From positions 162,014-226,013 of the forward strand of contig JACWEJ010000001.1 in NCBI GenBank assembly GCA_014653545.1: a stretch of 64,000 bases of DNA, in the 5' to 3' direction. The translations under genes and the position numbers were made by a program. Positions 6,806 through 12,144 of the stretch are shown here, piece after piece. The notes under the pieces are model-generated. The model was not told the origin of the DNA and did not search any database. It worked only from the letters and a program-made list of their open reading frames with translations. Position 1 is the stretch's first letter; each line of letters opens with the position of its first letter. This DNA is from Pelagibacterales bacterium SAG-MED41 (lineage in GTDB: Bacteria > Pseudomonadota > Alphaproteobacteria > Pelagibacterales > Pelagibacteraceae).

Positions 6806-6879
6806 GGCCACGTGGCGGAATGGTTACGCAGAGGATTGCAAATCCTTTTATCCCAGTTCGATTCTGGGCGTGGCCTCCA
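6806..6879 (+). tRNA. tRNA-Cys (anticodon GCA)
   Basis: Complete cloverleaf of 74 nt. The acceptor stem GGCCACG pairs with CGTGGCC, the anticodon loop around GATTGCAAATC has anticodon GCA, the T-arm CCCAG-TTCGATT-CTGGG is intact, the discriminator is U and CCA is encoded. Positions 6835-6879 recur in imperfect form at 11977-12021, making this the likely attachment site of the accessory island that follows. Confidence 0.96.
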
Positions 6880-6957
6880 GAGATAATCGTTGATAAATAA
6901 CACTTTGGAGTCAAAATCACTTCGACTCAAATTGAACATAAACTTTAAATGTACACC

Positions 6958-6977
6958 AAGGACTGGTCTAGGGACTG
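6958..6977 (+). repeat. 20-bp direct repeat, left copy
   Basis: The 20-mer aaggactggtctagggactg occurs here and again, identical, at 11832-11851. It holds two GGACTG-type half-units (ggactg-gtcta-gggactg). Its GC-rich composition contrasts with the AT-rich surroundings. It lies 78 bp inside the tRNA-Cys edge of the island and may be a recombinase binding site or an internal att remnant. Confidence 0.8.
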
Positions 6978-7102
6978 TAATCCAATTTTGTTCCATTTAT
7001 TACTTCATAATAAGAAAACTGGCTAATCTAACGCCCCTACTTACTATCTTACTTTTCAAAATTTATATTGCTTACAACCTTGGAAAAATGATAGCTTTTT
7101 TT

Positions 7103-7318
7103 ATGACTAAAAATATTAAGGCATCAATTTTTTTTGCAGCATTCGTATTGACAATTTTGCTTACGTACTTAATTAAACCTGCATACGCTGTAACGTGTTT
7201 TAAAAAAGGAGAGTACACTTCTGGATTCAACAAAATTTGTATATATAATTGTTTAGGTTCTGATAAAGCGATAACAATTAAAAACACACAGCTTTGTCCA
7301 TTAAGTATACAAGATTAA
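7103..7318 (+). CDS. Small exported cysteine-containing protein, function unknown
   Basis: I do not recognise this protein. The ATG at 7103 gives 71 residues: a short charged start (MTKNIK), a hydrophobic stretch (ASIFFAAFVLTILLTYLI) and a plausible signal-peptidase site after PAYA. The mature peptide is about 42 residues with four cysteines (VTC, KIC, YNC, QLC), suggesting two disulfides in the periplasm. An ATG at 7088 (MIAFF) is an alternative start. Reading the frame open back to 6890 would include the tRNA-proximal repeat and is unlikely. It is the first gene after the island's left repeat and the only plus-strand gene in the island. Confidence 0.55.
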   Translation: MTKNIKASIFFAAFVLTILLTYLIKPAYAVTCFKKGEYTSGFNKICIYNCLGSDKAITIKNTQLCPLSIQD

Positions 7319-7386
7319 ACATACTAGGTTCAAGGCAACTGGCAAAGTCCTCTTTGTTTAATGAAAACTAACTGGCCTAATCATAA

Positions 7387-8454
7387 TTAACAATCTCCAG
7401 GAACTTGGGGGTGACTTAAAAATTTTTTACTTAGATAGATCATACCATCATAATCTCGAATTCTTTTATAATTTTCTATAGCATCAAGGTAACTACTGAA
7501 ATGTTGAAGCGAATACTTTACATAACATCTGGCAACTCTTTGACGTAATTTTGTTGCTTCAACGTACATTTCTTGTATCCTTCGTTCTTCAGCTTTTCTT
7601 TGATTTTCTTCCATCTCTCTTTCAATTTCTTGTTTTGCTAATTCTTTATTATCGTCCCAAAATCTTTGTGATTTTCCTTCTGCGTCATAATAAAGACCTT
7701 TGCCATGAGGCTGCCAATTTTTAATCTCTCCTTGATACGTTTGCCCATCATCTTTTGTTATTAAACCTTTTTCTAAAGTCCAACTTGTCCAATTACCTTC
7801 ATACGATATATTGTGTTTGGTGAAAATAATTTTCCCTTTTCCATTTGGAGTATCGTTTTTAAATTTTGCTTTAAGTATATATGGAGTGTTTGAGTTATTT
7901 TCAGTAAAAACTCCGTCTCCATGATATTGAAAATTTGAATTAAATCCACCTTCATATTTATAATTAACAATACCCTTGCTATAAGTTTTTATTCCTTTTT
8001 TTATTTTACCTTGATTAAATTTTCCTGAAAATTTTGTTGAATCTGTATCTTTATAATCTTTAAATGTAAGTTCACCGTAGCCATGCTCCAAACCCTCTTT
8101 CCAACCACCTATATATATAAAAGCAGGTGTAGTTAAAGTACCTTGACCATGATAATAATCATTTTTAAAATTTCCCTCGTACTCTTCATCGTCCCAATCG
8201 GGTGAATTAAAAGAGTAAAATTTCGCTTTTCCATAACCGTGTGACAAACCCGGTTGTTTACCGAATTCACCTTCATAATCTGATAAATATTTTAAACCAT
8301 CTTCTTCTTCATATTGTTTGCCTATATATTTACCATAGCAATTAGTATAATTCTCGTGGTCTTCGCCTTCGCAAGGAGGTAAATTACTATTTGCAGACAA
8401 GTTATAGTTATTTAAAAAAAATAAAGATAAAAATAATAATAATACTTTTTTCAT
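7387..8454 (-). CDS. Exported MORN-repeat protein
   Basis: 355 residues with an N-terminal signal peptide (MKKVLLLFLSLFFLNNYNLSA). About eight MORN-type repeats follow, such as YEGEFGKQPGLSHGYGKA, YEGNFKNDYYHGQGTL, YIGGWKEGLEHGYGEL and YQGEIKNWQPHGKGLY, covering roughly residues 60-260. The C-terminus is a charged helical region (EIEREMEENQRKAEERRIQEMYVEATKLRQRV). MORN repeats usually bind membranes, lipid or protein partners; no enzymatic motif is seen. It is the last gene of the minus-strand island cluster, 3 bp after the preceding small gene. The periplasmic location is inferred from the signal peptide. Confidence 0.75.
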   Translation of the reverse strand: MKKVLLLFLSLFFLNNYNLSANSNLPPCEGEDHENYTNCYGKYIGKQYEEEDGLKYLSDYEGEFGKQPGLSHGYGKAKFYSFNSPDWDDEEYEGNFKNDYYHGQGTLTTPAFIYIGGWKEGLEHGYGELTFKDYKDTDSTKFSGKFNQGKIKKGIKTYSKGIVNYKYEGGFNSNFQYHGDGVFTENNSNTPYILKAKFKNDTPNGKGKIIFTKHNISYEGNWTSWTLEKGLITKDDGQTYQGEIKNWQPHGKGLYYDAEGKSQRFWDDNKELAKQEIEREMEENQRKAEERRIQEMYVEATKLRQRVARCYVKYSLQHFSSYLDAIENYKRIRDYDGMIYLSKKFLSHPQVPGDC

Positions 8455-8457
8455 TGT

Positions 8458-8760
8458 TCATCTTAATAAAAATTGTGGACATTGCAAATGTGGGGCCACA
8501 GGCATTTCTTCTCCGTTTTCATACTGACAATGTCTTAAAACAGTATTAAATTCTCGATTATAATAAACTGGATCCCCTGTTAAATAAACTTTATTAACCG
8601 TAGTTTTTTTTGATCCTGATCCACTTCCATTATCGTCACCACTAGAACACCAAGCGAGTATAAAAAAAAGTCCAAAAAGGTACAAAAAAATTTTACCCAT
8701 GCTCCAGGGTTTGCTTTTGTTGAGAGGTAGTTTTAATTTAGTTTTTCTTTTTTTTGCCAT
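8458..8760 (-). CDS. Small membrane-anchored protein, unknown
   Basis: I do not recognise this 100-residue protein. It has a strongly basic N-terminus (MAKKRKTKLKLPLNKSKPW), one transmembrane segment (MGKIFLYLFGLFFILAWC) and a Gly/Ser linker (SSGDDNGSGSGS). A short outer domain follows with two cysteines (RHCQYENGEEMPVAPHLQCPQF). The basic flank predicts the N-terminus inside and the C-terminal domain in the periplasm. It sits 3 bp upstream of the MORN gene in the same direction, so the two are probably translated from one message. Confidence 0.5.
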   Translation of the reverse strand: MAKKRKTKLKLPLNKSKPWSMGKIFLYLFGLFFILAWCSSGDDNGSGSGSKKTTVNKVYLTGDPVYYNREFNTVLRHCQYENGEEMPVAPHLQCPQFLLR

Positions 8761-8806
8761 AAATTATCTTATTAAAGGACTTTCTTTTTTTCAATAATTT
8801 TATATC

Positions 8807-9457
8807 TTAATTTTGCTCTAATATTTTACATGGATTAGAATACCAGCCAGAAACTAGTCTGCCATCTCCCAACATCCAAAGTTCATCGTTTTTAAAATAA
8901 GGTTCGCTAGCAGTTTTAATATTTTCCATTACAATTTTTTTTCCCCAGCTCAAAATTTTTCTGTTTTGAATTGATTTTTGTGGAAATTGTTCCACCCAAA
9001 CCTCGGACCTTGCATTCATTTTCTGTTTATCTAGATACCAATAGCTATACATCTGGCCATAGCTACCACCATCTCCACCACAATCATACTCTATGTAAGA
9101 AAATTTACTATAATTTTTAGCAGTTAAATCTTTACCGAAACTAAAAATAAAATATACTCCAATTAAAATTCCTACTATTGGCAGTAGCGCTTTCTTTGGG
9201 TTTTTTTTCCAATCCTTCTCAATTTTTTTTAATTTAACATCCCAGTCTTTATTCAAATTTTTCATTTTCTTATCCCACGCTTTATTATTAAATTTTTTAT
9301 CTATTTTTGAACTGAAAAGATCGATTTTTTTAACTAGTGCATAAGTAATTAAAGATATCCAAATAATAAGAAGCGTTGGTTCAATTATTGAAGTGATAAC
9401 AATAATTAACCAAGATAATGTTTTTTTCTTTTGATAAAAGTCAAAAATTTGTTTCAT
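8807..9457 (-). CDS. Membrane protein with Lys/Trp-rich helical linker, unknown
   Basis: 216 residues, not recognised. One or two hydrophobic segments lie near the N-terminus (LSWLIIVITSIIEPTLLIIWISLITYALV). A charged segment with recurring WDxKxK/KDW units comes next (NNKAWDKKMKNLNKDWDVKLKKIEKDW), then another membrane span (ALLPIVGILIGVYFIFSFG). The C-terminal domain of about 80 residues is aromatic-rich (GGDGGSYGQMYSYWYLDKQ; MLGDGRLVSGWYSNPCKILEQN). It belongs to the minus-strand island cluster, 46 bp before the next small gene and 6 bp after the preceding lipoprotein gene. Confidence 0.5.
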   Translation of the reverse strand: MKQIFDFYQKKKTLSWLIIVITSIIEPTLLIIWISLITYALVKKIDLFSSKIDKKFNNKAWDKKMKNLNKDWDVKLKKIEKDWKKNPKKALLPIVGILIGVYFIFSFGKDLTAKNYSKFSYIEYDCGGDGGSYGQMYSYWYLDKQKMNARSEVWVEQFPQKSIQNRKILSWGKKIVMENIKTASEPYFKNDELWMLGDGRLVSGWYSNPCKILEQN

Positions 9458-9463
9458 GCTATA

Positions 9464-9754
9464 TTAATCTTTAATAAAAATATAATTTTCGTTTAAATAA
9501 TCGCATTTGTAAACTTTATTTTTATATTTTATTTTATTTTTAAAAGTGTGGTATTGAATTTCCTGACAATTCTTAAAGAATTTAGGGTGTCTTTTCTTAG
9601 TAATTTTCCATGTTTTTTCTTCATCGCATATTAAAATTTCTTTTTTTTCGTCTTGAAATTGACATGCTTCATCTAATTTAACTTTAACCTGATTTTTAGA
9701 ACAAGAAATAATGAAAAGGAATACTATTAAAAGTATATTTTTATACTCGATCAA
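9464..9754 (-). CDS. Small putative lipoprotein, unknown
   Basis: The frame is open from an ATG at 9787 (107 residues), but that start would overlap the preceding lipoprotein gene by 47 bp. A TTG at 9754 gives MIEYKNILLIVFLFIISCSKNQ, a compact lipoprotein signal with the lipobox Cys in IISC and only a 14-bp overlap, so I prefer it. The mature part is about 78 residues, has several cysteines (ACQF, ICDE, NCQE, KCDY) and ends in NYIFIKD. No family recognised; it is probably a lipidated envelope protein. Confidence 0.5.
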   Translation of the reverse strand: MIEYKNILLIVFLFIISCSKNQVKVKLDEACQFQDEKKEILICDEEKTWKITKKRHPKFFKNCQEIQYHTFKNKIKYKNKVYKCDYLNENYIFIKD

Positions 9755-10205
9755 GAGAATTAAATAAATCTTTTTTATTAAATTCAATTAATAAAAAAAC
9801 TTTGTATCCTTTTTTTGTTTTGTAAATTTTCTTTTTAGAAGTTTTGTATTCAGTAATGTCATAATCTTTAATTGCCTGAATTATTTTTTCCTCATAATTA
9901 ACACTTATTTCAGATGTGGATGAAGAATTTTTTTTATTTTGTTTATCAGCTAAATAACTTTCTTTCACAGCATTAATGTTACTTTTAATCTTAAAAAGAG
10001 CATCTCCGACAGCTAAAACTTCCGCTTTTCTCATTGCAATTTCTAAATTCTCAGAATCGCTTTGCGATTTTCCAAAAAATTTAAATTTACTCTCAGAGTC
10101 TTTTACGTACCATTTAGGAATTTCATTTTTGTAATTTTTAACTTTATAGTTCCCAGTGCATGAGACCAAAATTAAGCTTAGAATAACTAAAAAGATTTTT
10201 TTCAT
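9741..10205 (-). CDS. Putative lipoprotein, LPP20-like
   Basis: 154 residues with a clear lipoprotein signal (MKKIFLVILSLILVSCTGNY, lipid-modified Cys at about residue 16). The mature start IPKWYVKDSESKFKFFGKSQ followed by a helix of A..KAEVLAVGDALFKIK resembles the LPP20/LPP-repeat lipoprotein pattern: PxWY, then G.S.S....A...A...A. Assignment is by motif shape only. The C-terminus contains YEEKIIQAIKDY and KKGYKVFLLIEFNKKDL. It belongs to the island lipoprotein cluster. Outer- or inner-membrane anchoring cannot be told. Confidence 0.6.
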   Translation of the reverse strand: MKKIFLVILSLILVSCTGNYKVKNYKNEIPKWYVKDSESKFKFFGKSQSDSENLEIAMRKAEVLAVGDALFKIKSNINAVKESYLADKQNKKNSSSTSEISVNYEEKIIQAIKDYDITEYKTSKKKIYKTKKGYKVFLLIEFNKKDLFNSLDRV

Positions 10206-10223
10206 TAATTTAAATTAAGCTAT

Positions 10224-10703
10224 TTACTTAAAAAAATCATCAATAAAAACCCACTTACCGTTTTCAAAATTAAAACATGCGGTTTTAGTATTAATTTTAC
10301 TAGTTTCTTTAACTAGATTATTATTAACACCATAAGGGGAATAATTTCTTTTTTTTCCAATTTGTTGAATCCAGGTTCTACACAAATTATCTTTTTTAAA
10401 AGAAGATTTTACTATTCTTACTTTTCCAAAATAATTATCATAATCCCACAGAAAATTTTTTCCATTATTTGAGTCTGACAATGCCGATATAACGGCTCCG
10501 TTATGTAACTTAATTCCTTTTTTTGGAATTGAAAAATATAATTTAACTAAACTATCATGAATTACATCAATCAACATACCTTCCATATTACTTTCAGGGT
10601 TTGTAATTATTGGTTTATTTGTAAATTCAGAAATACTTTGATTTTTACTTGATTGACAGTTTGTCAGTAAAAAAATGGATATGAAGAGTAATCTAATAAA
10701 CAT
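10224..10703 (-). CDS. Putative lipoprotein with 17-kDa-antigen-like C-terminus
   Basis: 159 residues; lipoprotein signal MFIRLLFISIFLLTNCQSS with the lipobox Cys in LTNC. The C-terminal part has CRTWIQQIG...YSPYG...TACFNFENGKWVF. It resembles the CREY-type ending (paired Cys, aromatic G-K-W) of Rickettsia 17-kDa surface antigen lipoproteins, but this is a weak pattern-level match. It overlaps the preceding lipoprotein gene by 11 bp. The function is unknown; outer-membrane anchoring is likely. Confidence 0.55.
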   Translation of the reverse strand: MFIRLLFISIFLLTNCQSSKNQSISEFTNKPIITNPESNMEGMLIDVIHDSLVKLYFSIPKKGIKLHNGAVISALSDSNNGKNFLWDYDNYFGKVRIVKSSFKKDNLCRTWIQQIGKKRNYSPYGVNNNLVKETSKINTKTACFNFENGKWVFIDDFFK

Positions 10704-11010
10704 AAACTATCGTTTCTCCATCTATTGTACAAATGATTGGTGCTTTTAAACCATCTATTTTTTTTGAAGACTTTCTGCATTTTTCTTGATCAAATCCTAA
10801 AACAGGGAAATTAAACGAGTAACCGTTTTTGCATATAACTTTTTCTGTAAAAATTTTTTTATTCAAATCCCAATTTGATTTTAAAATACATTCTGTCTTT
10901 TCTATTTTTTGAAGTGAGTTATCCAATTTTAAAGTTTTAGTGTTTGGCGAACAACTAAATACAAAAATTAATAAAACAAGATAAAATCTATTTGAAAAAT
11001 CTGTAATCAT
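10693..11010 (-). CDS. Small putative lipoprotein, unknown
   Basis: Starting at the ATG at 11010 (MITDFSNRFYLVLLIFVFSCSPN) gives about 105 residues with a lipobox Cys in FVFSC. An ATG at 11028 would extend the overlap with the upstream gene and add MQVGIF without benefit. The mature part is short with four cysteines (TECILK, VICKNG, EKCRKS, IICTID), giving two possible disulfides. It ends TIDGETIVYVY. Not recognised. Tightly overlapped at both ends with other small lipoprotein genes of the island. Confidence 0.5.
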   Translation of the reverse strand: MITDFSNRFYLVLLIFVFSCSPNTKTLKLDNSLQKIEKTECILKSNWDLNKKIFTEKVICKNGYSFNFPVLGFDQEKCRKSSKKIDGLKAPIICTIDGETIVYVY

Positions 11011-11548
11011 AAAAATACCAACCTGCAAACACTAAATGTGGAGGAATTGGAAAACCATTGCTATCATCAAAAACACCCCATCCAAGTGCACTGGGACAAG
11101 CTAAAAATTTATAATCCCATATTTCTTCATTTTTAATTAATCTTGAGGAATATTCTCTACAACCTCGAAATCCTCCGCTTATTGAAACTGAATTACCTCT
11201 AGTATCGTAAATAGTTTTTAAAATTTTAATCTTTCCGCTAGTTTTATTTCTATCATTAGCCCAACTTAAGATGTCGCCATCATTTTGATTATAAAGAGCA
11301 TTAATTAATATTTTAGTATGTGAACATCTATCTTCAATTTTGAATTCAGATGAAATGGCTTGAGCAGCATATTTTTTTGCCCATGCAATTAAATGAATTT
11401 GTGTTGAATGTTTTGCATCTAATGATCGATAATTTATAGAAGGCGCTAAGCATGCGTATTTATAGGACTCTCTCAGAGAACTTGTTTCTCCAGTTAGTAA
11501 ACAAGAATTTAGAAAAAAAAATAAAAATAGCAAAAAAAATATTCTCAT
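10988..11548 (-). CDS. Putative lipoprotein, unknown (CREY-motif C-terminus)
   Basis: 186 residues; signal MRIFFLLFLFFFLNSCLLTG with lipobox Cys in LNSC. The middle holds a basic helix (HLIAWAKKYAAQAISSEF). The latter half contains GCREYSSRLIKNEEIWDYKFLACPSALGWGVFD, in which the CREY motif and second Cys resemble those of the island lipoprotein at 10224-10703. It ends with aromatic residues (FAGWYFYDYRFFK). It overlaps the preceding small gene by 4 bp (ATGA-type), so translational coupling is likely. No enzymatic function is suggested. Confidence 0.55.
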   Translation of the reverse strand: MRIFFLLFLFFFLNSCLLTGETSSLRESYKYACLAPSINYRSLDAKHSTQIHLIAWAKKYAAQAISSEFKIEDRCSHTKILINALYNQNDGDILSWANDRNKTSGKIKILKTIYDTRGNSVSISGGFRGCREYSSRLIKNEEIWDYKFLACPSALGWGVFDDSNGFPIPPHLVFAGWYFYDYRFFK

Positions 11549-11787
11549 TTAAACTCTTTAAAGTTTTTTCCCAATTTAAAATTATGCTCTAATATTTTGT
11601 ATTTAAGATTGTTAAATATATTGCAATTTCTATAACTTCCATCAATTTGCTTTATTTTGCATTCACTCATATGAACAGCAAATCTATACTCTTTTGAATT
11701 AAGCCAAGTTTCTAAATTATCTTCTGCTTTAAGATTGTTTATTACGAAAAAAAATATAATAAATATAAATACTTTGTTTTTTGACAT
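11545..11787 (-). CDS. Small exported protein, unknown
   Basis: 80 residues with a signal peptide (MSKNKVFIFIIFFFVINNLKA, cleavage probably after KAE/LKA). The mature peptide is about 60 residues and includes WLNSKEYRFAVHMSECKIKQ and a second Cys in YRNCNIF. It is the first gene of the six-gene minus-strand lipoprotein run of the island. The right copy of the 20-bp repeat (11832-11851) begins 44 bp upstream of its start, in the likely promoter region. Not recognised. Confidence 0.45.
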   Translation of the reverse strand: MSKNKVFIFIIFFFVINNLKAEDNLETWLNSKEYRFAVHMSECKIKQIDGSYRNCNIFNNLKYKILEHNFKLGKNFKEFK

Positions 11788-11831
11788 TTGATCTCAAAAT
11801 AAATTTAATGTATTTAGGTTATTATATCTTT

Positions 11832-11851
11832 AAGGACTGGTCTAGGGACTG
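11832..11851 (+). repeat. 20-bp direct repeat, right copy
   Basis: Identical to 6958-6977 (aaggactggtctagggactg), 4874 bp downstream in the same orientation. It lies 125 bp inside the right-hand tRNA-Cys fragment and just upstream of the first gene of the island's lipoprotein run. Confidence 0.8.
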
Positions 11852-11976
11852 GTTTATCAAAATTATTTTTTAAATTATATAGTAGCAATTTTAAGTTGTA
11901 TGTAAAATATGAATGATTTCATTGTTTTAAGAGTATGTGAGAGTACCAAAGAGAACGGATATTGTGAATCCAGAAT

Positions 11977-12021
11977 ATTGCAAATCCTTTTATTCCAGTT
12001 CGATTCTGGACGTGGCCTCCA
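11977..12021 (+). repeat. tRNA-Cys 3' fragment (putative attachment-site copy)
   Basis: 45 nt matching 43 of 45 positions of tRNA-Cys from the anticodon arm to the encoded CCA. The two differences (C to T at 11994, G to A at 12010) are partners in the T-stem, so pairing is preserved. There is no 5' half (no D-arm or 5' acceptor strand), so it is not a functional tRNA. It marks the right edge of the 6.8-12.0 kb island. Confidence 0.85.
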
Positions 12022-12068
12022 ATAAATAAGTTGTTTTATTTTACTAAAAAAAGTATGTTGCTTTTCAT

Positions 12069-12144
12069 TCCTCGGTAGCTCAGTTGGTAGAGCAGTTGAC
12101 TGTTAATCAATTGGTCGCAGGTTCGAGTCCTGCCCGAGGAGCCA
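12069..12144 (+). tRNA. tRNA-Asn (anticodon GTT)
   Basis: 76-nt cloverleaf. The acceptor stem TCCTCGG pairs with CCGAGGA, the D-arm is GCTCAGTTGGTAGAGC, the anticodon stem-loop TTGACTGTTAATCAA carries anticodon GTT, the T-arm is GCAGG-TTCGAGT-CCTGC, the discriminator is G and CCA is encoded. It lies 47 bp after the tRNA-Cys fragment. Confidence 0.97.

Follow-up and report, generated by a model that had tools for sequence, protein, structure and literature searches.

Integrase-free elements and the tRNA-Cys locus of SAG-MED41

Cis-mobilizable elements (CIMEs) are understood as decayed integrative and conjugative elements (ICEs) or integrative and mobilizable elements (IMEs) that move by accretion with a neighboring element (PMC5704250). 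The ssrA islands of Dehalococcoides include islands without an integration module (PMC3146451), and their recombinase is the serine enzyme DsiB. Hitchers, among them miniature inverted-repeat transposable elements (MITEs) and clusters of attC sites lacking integron integrases (CALINs), have recognition ends and an enzyme encoded elsewhere (PMC11389934), and tycheposons carry a tyrosine recombinase and measure 4 to 200 kb (as described in PMC10872708). Here we describe an interval at the tRNA-Cys gene in a 64,000-nucleotide (nt) stretch of DNA, hereafter the window, from Pelagibacterales bacterium SAG-MED41 (GCA_014653545.1; contig JACWEJ010000001.1, positions 162,014 to 226,013 of the forward strand; genome G000). 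We consider it probable that this interval is a non-autonomous integrative cassette, with an attachment module of ∼300 nt that would be acted on by a tyrosine recombinase in trans.

SAR11 rank with the most abundant ocean bacteria, and their highly streamlined genomes have few recognizable mobile elements. The cassette is like CIMEs and ssrA islands in that it keeps a left and a right attachment site (attL and attR), has no integrase, carries cargo genes, and lies at a tRNA or transfer-messenger RNA (tmRNA) target. Both attachment sites are present in the interval together with no integration or transfer genes, and searches with Pfam and PHROGs found no remnants of transfer genes there. Unlike CIMEs, single SAR11 cassettes with intact putative arm sites recur with unrelated cargo, and no tandem autonomous element was seen. 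Unlike the ssrA islands, the recombinase would be of the tyrosine class rather than serine DsiB.

Like hitchers, the cassette is defined by its recognition ends, and its mover is presumably encoded elsewhere. CALINs have integron attC sites and depend on integron integrases, whereas each cassette end pairs a tRNA half-site with arms made of direct repeats. MITEs have no coding genes and measure about 300 nt, whereas the cassette carries kilobases of cargo. Tycheposons likewise bring cargo to the tRNA genes of streamlined marine bacteria; the cassette shares their tRNA border but not their encoded tyrosine recombinase. The integrase, satellite replication, regulation, and packaging genes that characterize phage-inducible chromosomal islands (PICIs) and phage-inducible chromosomal minimalist islands (PICMIs) were not found in the interval. 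In function, the cassettes resemble CIMEs, ssrA islands free of an integration module, and hitchers. We found no earlier description of such a SAR11 cassette family in the literature searched, the coverage of which was incomplete.

A displaced tRNA-Cys end at a site that is empty in most relatives

The tRNA-Cys (GCA) gene, called with ARAGORN, occupies positions 6806 to 6879 on the plus strand. A preliminary description of the window, made from the sequence alone, had reported that the 3' part of this gene recurs with two mismatches at the far end of the interval and had proposed a tRNA-targeted island. The repeat is as described (6835 to 6879 versus 11977 to 12021) and forms the 45-nt core of a longer repeat of 51 nt (6829 to 6879 versus 11971 to 12021; 47/51 identical). 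The right copy, also on the plus strand, ends 47 nt upstream of tRNA-Asn (12069 to 12144; ARAGORN), the same distance as at empty sites. Because it is a tRNA 3' half at exactly the empty-site distance from tRNA-Asn, it is not a chance match. The host flank outside the element, made up of this 47-nt spacer and tRNA-Asn (12022 to 12144, plus strand), is the same as in relatives with an empty site.

We surveyed 121 genomes of the same genus, 82 of which had a tRNA-Cys match. In 69 of these 82, counted by hand from the locus table, the site is empty and reads tRNA-Cys, 45 to 52 nt, tRNA-Asn. The empty site is the common state, which the preliminary description had anticipated for related genomes, and the nearest relatives lack the cargo at this place. 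The interval therefore has an intact tRNA gene at one end, a displaced 3' fragment at the other, and relatives without an insertion, as expected of a tRNA-targeted island.

The two mismatches in the core are compensatory partners in the T-stem, with a C-G pair in the left copy and a U-A pair in the right. The T-stem of the left copy (CCCAG/CTGGG) differs both from the displaced copy and from the nearest relatives by downstream flank. The U-A allele is native to the tRNA-Cys genes of genomes G185, G337, and G271, whose 3' ends equal the right copy of the window over all 45 nt. The core and spacer are 97.8% identical to those of G185 and G337, both of which have empty sites and the U-A allele, and a quick tree of two downstream host genes grouped the window with them (Shimodaira-Hasegawa-like approximate likelihood ratio test [SH-aLRT] values of 94 and 96). 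A tree of the upstream gene valS positioned the window less precisely.

Because the right copy matches the native allele of empty-site relatives, it is the displaced end of the host gene (attR). The present tRNA gene is a restored target: its 5' part is host derived, and the element supplied its 3' half, beginning at the anticodon loop (attL). The allele swap independently shows both integration and its polarity, and integration itself is strongly supported.

Paired putative arm-type sites in the element ends

The preliminary description had overlooked an exact 20-nt repeat, AAGGACTGGTCTAGGGACTG, whose two copies have the same orientation and lie at 6958 to 6977, 78 nt in from the left end, and at 11832 to 11851, about 125 nt in from the right end. 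This sequence is unique to the two ends in the G000 genome, even when three mismatches are allowed. It is a tandem pair of GGACTGGT with a period of 11 to 12 nt. At the putative left arm-type site (6958 to 6977, plus strand), GGACTGGT (6960 to 6967) is followed by GGACTG (6972 to 6977) as a direct tandem with a period of 12 nt, and at its right counterpart (11832 to 11853, plus strand), the first 20 nt of which equal the left site, GGACTGGT occurs twice (11834 to 11841 and 11846 to 11853).

The left end module, which makes up the rest of attL (6880 to 6990, plus strand), is near-identical to that of the element in G356 for its first ∼60 nt and unrelated thereafter. The element-derived left half of attR (GAGAACGGATATTGTGAATCCAGAAT; 11951 to 11976, plus strand) is conserved in the elements of G340, G018, and G356. 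Across elements, left ends align for ∼60 to 100 nt and right ends for 180 nt before identity falls to background, and the cargo inside is unrelated. An inverted repeat just within the left end, TTTGGAGTC...GACTCAAA (6905 to 6931), is also present in the G356 and G318 elements and is possibly a site for an accessory protein.

Core half-sites flanked on both sides by tandem arm repeats, at similar spacing in independent elements, have the layout of a heterobivalent tyrosine-recombinase site. We infer that the tandem repeats are arm-type sites bound by an integrase. Joining the two ends gives a predicted circular attachment site (attP) with the order right arm, GAGAACGG...AATATTGCAAATCC, tRNA-Cys 3' half, left arm. 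Support for the arm-site reading comes from independent SAR11 integrases of ∼315 to 346 amino acids (aa) with a distinct N-terminal region. Of 297 family genomes, 11 encode such an integrase; two additional matches were to longer frames of 464 aa. Several of these integrases adjoin tRNA-Met, tRNA-Arg, or tRNA-Ser, and most of them (examined at L323 to L326 and L329 to L332) have beside the start codon a tandem repeat with an 11-nt period, of the same architecture as the cassette arms and with its own sequence in each case. Such repeats offer a route to the arm sites of each element.

A family of cassettes with common ends and different cargo

A gapped version of the arm motif was searched in 169 genomes of the genus and was found in six (G000, G340, G345, G356, G018, and G285), always beside tRNA-Cys. 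The named records behind several cassette genomes are single-cell or metagenome-assembled genome (MAG) assemblies of Pelagibacteraceae. The cassette in G340 carries a distant copy of the lipoprotein block of the window together with a 606-aa membrane protein, and G345 holds part of a G340-like cassette. The G356 cassette encodes a two-gene Type I restriction-modification system. In G018, the cassette encodes an SNase and TerB along with two proteins of membrane or coiled-coil type, and G285 holds part of this gene set.

A second class of arms (class B; we refer to the arms above as class A) consists of CTCGTGCNAGT tandem repeats within the same outer architecture and was read from single ends, the left end in G318 and the right end in G141. 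In 202 family genomes, the class B pattern was found, besides G141, only in G056. This genome belongs to a different genus and has just two matches, which lie within the left and right ends of a tRNA-Cys cassette of 1.9 kb. Arms read from single ends were recovered at both ends of a further element, which served as a predictive check. The single large gene of the G056 cassette encodes five DUF4379 zinc fingers and has a weak match to REase_MTES_1575. The tRNA-Cys gene of G318, a genome flagged as 7% contaminated (contig C48, L226), has six differences from the genus consensus, as does that of G259, and the class B left end of G318 may come from another lineage.

Both ends were resolved in at least five elements (G000, G340, G356, G018, and G056), which measure 1.9 to 5.6 kb and contain no integrase. 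Both arm sites are intact with similar spacing in all five; the left arm in G018 is exact and the right arm has one changed base.

Cargo has also moved between genera. The six-gene block of the G340 cassette is found at a non-tRNA locus in three genomes of genus g2 with 82 to 95% amino acid identity. Flank genes compared between the same two genera are 53% (an exported protein), 67% (valS), 70% (a helix-turn-helix [HTH] protein), and 85% (an ABC ATPase) identical. The comparison of block with flanks indicates that the block crossed genera. In the g2 genomes, the block lies with a 617- to 624-aa protein at one chromosomal locus (L314, 10249 to 14554; L316, 8360 to 12644; L315, 2928 to 7233). 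With amino acid identities of mostly 31 to 52%, the lipoprotein block of the window is an older version.

Different cargo behind similar ends might also reflect a single integration long ago, after which homologous recombination at the conserved flanks and ends exchanged the cargo; the islands would now move only when flanking DNA recombines. The left ends are indeed modular, with one subtype in G000 and G356 and another in G340, G018, and G285; in the G318 element, class B arms lie within an outer end that is class A-like; and the right flank of the window is far closer to G185 than its left flank is. However, the allele junction in the window falls precisely at the core, the ends are found in two genera and are surrounded mostly by empty sites, and the arms keep a conserved spacing that homology-based exchange does not need. 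We therefore regard cargo replacement at a single old insertion as improbable.

Insertions in G120, G217, G225, G331, G314, and G197 were considered as family members and rejected: none has arm sites, and those whose right side was visible have no 3' copy. Five of these are small (∼50 nt to 2.2 kb) and separate tRNA-Cys from tRNA-Asn (L055 in G120, L057 in G217, L037 in G225, L034 in G331, and L038 in G314). The sixth, in G197 (L225), is an 11-kb island between tRNA-Cys (1009 to 1082) and tRNA-Asn (12097), also without arm motifs. By eye, it encodes a TerB-like protein, a paralogue of the 588-aa membrane protein of G018, and caspase-like and trypsin-like proteins, and it is possibly an immunity system. 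In G058 (L059) and G229 (L088), insertions lie between tRNA-Asn and the neighboring HTH gene, so the hotspot reaches past the tRNA-Cys site.

Search for an integrase or helper

The preliminary description had seen no recombinase in the interval, and our search agrees with it: the interval contains no site-specific integrase of its own, and PF00589 has one match in the whole G000 genome (60% complete), outside the window. None of the cassettes seen whole contains an integrase. The G018 genome, which is 98% complete, has a single tyrosine recombinase (PF00589) at another locus.

In well-covered genomes that we examined, there was one non-element tyrosine recombinase each, of 304 to 325 aa (L252, 1456 to 2370; L253, 1135 to 2088). 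In G000 and G056 (L256), the resident recombinase lies next to genes that appear to act in glycan or sugar transfer, a setting that resembles the one reported for an integrase in hypervariable region 2 of SAR11 (PMC2217521). As the sole PF00589 protein in G000 and G018, this resident enzyme could be thought to act in trans on the cassettes. We give that explanation very little credence: the sole domains that Pfam assigns to the G018 enzyme are SAM-like and catalytic, one protein would need to serve two arm classes, and relatives of it also occur in many cassette-free genomes (uncounted).

Phages were the other source considered. Pelagiphage prophages of the HTVC022P type integrate at tRNA-Cys (PMC12753301), and these and phages in IMG/VR have the same target tRNA as the cassettes. 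Unlike the cassettes, the tRNA-Cys phages encode their own integrase of 281 to 290 aa, and their attP sites have neither class A nor class B arms. HTVC022P-type pelagiphages were rejected as direct helpers, their attP matching tRNA-Cys nt 5 to 41, the opposite (5') half, without arms. This attP directly follows the integrase gene in HTVC022P, HTVC201P, and HTVC021P (L227, L228, and L229). A putative attP in HTVC019P (8946 to 9015) was also set aside, as this sequence is actually a tRNA-Cys-like gene of full length whose acceptor stem is compensated.

T7-like contigs in IMG/VR have a tRNA-Cys 3'-half attP beside a 281-aa integrase and share with the cassettes the core TATTGCAAATCC as well as the restored 3' half. 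One such phage has this attP at 10770 to 10820 of L235, and 4987 to 5034 of L233, beside tRNA-Asn, appears to be where a related prophage has its right end (both in reading orientation). These phages were rejected as the helpers themselves, as neither arm class was found near attP in 35 related loci; they are the nearest candidates for a helper. Different elements thus approach the same anticodon core from opposite sides, pelagiphages through the 5' half and the IMG/VR phages and cassettes through the 3' half.

It is important to note that several results weigh against a cassette moved in trans. Neither an excised circle nor an attP junction nor an active integrase came to light. Viral contigs contained no class A attR motif, no class B arms, and no homologue of one cargo protein, and matches to class A arm patterns in IMG/VR were chance-like and mostly GC rich, with the later ones not each inspected. 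Displaced tRNA copies are starting to decay in several elements (G340 and G356). Moreover, the U-A and C-G tRNA alleles are mixed in the wider clade, so that polarity rests on the nearest relatives, and the window comes from an incomplete genome.

The elements could instead be frozen remnants, each descended from an autonomous phage, ICE, or IME whose integrase and transfer genes disappeared once it had integrated and whose cargo stayed because of its usefulness. The absence of any sign of mobility and the decay of the displaced copies would fit, and CIMEs by definition have lost integration genes yet retain attL and attR (PMC5704250). We nevertheless find it unlikely. At least five fully resolved elements are compact, lack an integrase, and keep both arms at similar spacing, and no autonomous sibling with these arms was found among the genomes searched. 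The interval in the window contains no phage structural or replication genes, and its PHROG matches were weak or to proteins of unknown function, so that it does not have the content of a prophage remnant. The preliminary description had left the choice between a satellite moved in trans and a frozen remnant; the conserved and intact ends, the varied cargo, and the absence of an integrase across elements favor the first.

Cargo of the window

The interval was described earlier as holding small exported, lipoprotein, or membrane genes and a MORN protein, and the list of open reading frames (ORFs) and Pfam bear this out. One small ORF lies on the plus strand (7067 to 7318; 83 aa); it has a signal-like N terminus and a weak match to phrog_4641 (unknown function). 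The other nine lie on the minus strand and encode, besides the MORN protein, eight small proteins of exported, lipoprotein, or membrane type. The exported MORN-repeat protein (7387 to 8454; 355 aa) belongs to the only confident Pfam family in the interval. It is followed by a small membrane-anchored ORF without a family match (8458 to 8760; 100 aa) and a membrane ORF without a significant one (8807 to 9457; 216 aa).

The remaining six ORFs form the lipoprotein block. A lipoprotein-like ORF (9464 to 9787; 107 aa) is a homologue of an 89-aa protein of the G340 cassette (31%), and an LPP20-like lipoprotein (9741 to 10205; 154 aa) is 44% identical to copies in the G340 cassette and the g2 chromosomes. 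A second lipoprotein-like ORF (10224 to 10703; 159 aa) is about 41% identical to its G340 copy. The next, a small exported ORF (10693 to 11028; 111 aa), corresponds by position only to a 103-aa gene of the G340 block and has no significant BLAST match. A lipoprotein ORF (10988 to 11548; 186 aa) is 52% identical to a G340 copy that weakly resembles the 17-kDa surface antigen family, and a small exported ORF (11545 to 11787; 80 aa) is about 36% identical to its G340 copy.

Searches of the cargo with Pfam, PHROGs, PADLOC, and NCBIfam gave nothing beyond MORN and weak hints of LPP20 and the 17-kDa antigen. Two AlphaFold models were of low confidence (predicted local distance difference test [pLDDT] scores of 68 and 58), and one Foldseek search gave no useful information. 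A change at the cell surface or envelope is a guess, and a rather doubtful one, drawn from the exported lipoproteins and MORN. The company of restriction and nuclease cassettes suggests phage defense as a candidate role.

Proposed mechanism and implications

In the mechanism that we propose, a tyrosine recombinase would join the attachment site of the ∼5.1-kb cassette to the host tRNA-Cys gene, with crossover in or just 3' of the anticodon loop. The tRNA gene would be rebuilt with the element-borne 3' half, and the host's own 3' half would be displaced to the far end. The sole mobility part would be the ∼300-nt end module, with a core half-site and a tandem-repeat arm-type site on each side. 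With no encoded integrase, integration and any excision would need one in trans, most likely from a passing mobile element or phage. Cargo differs between the SAR11 cells that have this module, with phage-defense systems elsewhere and MORN with envelope lipoproteins here. The end module, empty site, allele swap, cargo exchange, and missing integrase, each read from the sequences, are what this scheme would connect; the binding of the arm repeats, the trans-acting integrase, and mobility today are the parts that we infer.

More tentatively, and with less than even confidence, SAR11 may share a pool of integrase-less cassettes that have the ∼300-nt module with at least two arm classes, carry interchangeable defense and surface genes, use the tRNA-Cys slot, and depend on transient integrases of phages or other elements. 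Such a pool would be integron-like, with no resident integrase. With end motifs this precise, reads can be searched for the cassette family, and the helper integrase becomes a concrete target, expected to be a protein of ∼315 to 350 aa flanked by AGGGACTGGT or CTCGTGCNAGT tandem repeats. If true, a family of minimal cassettes would explain how defense and surface genes spread among SAR11 cells without genomic integrases.

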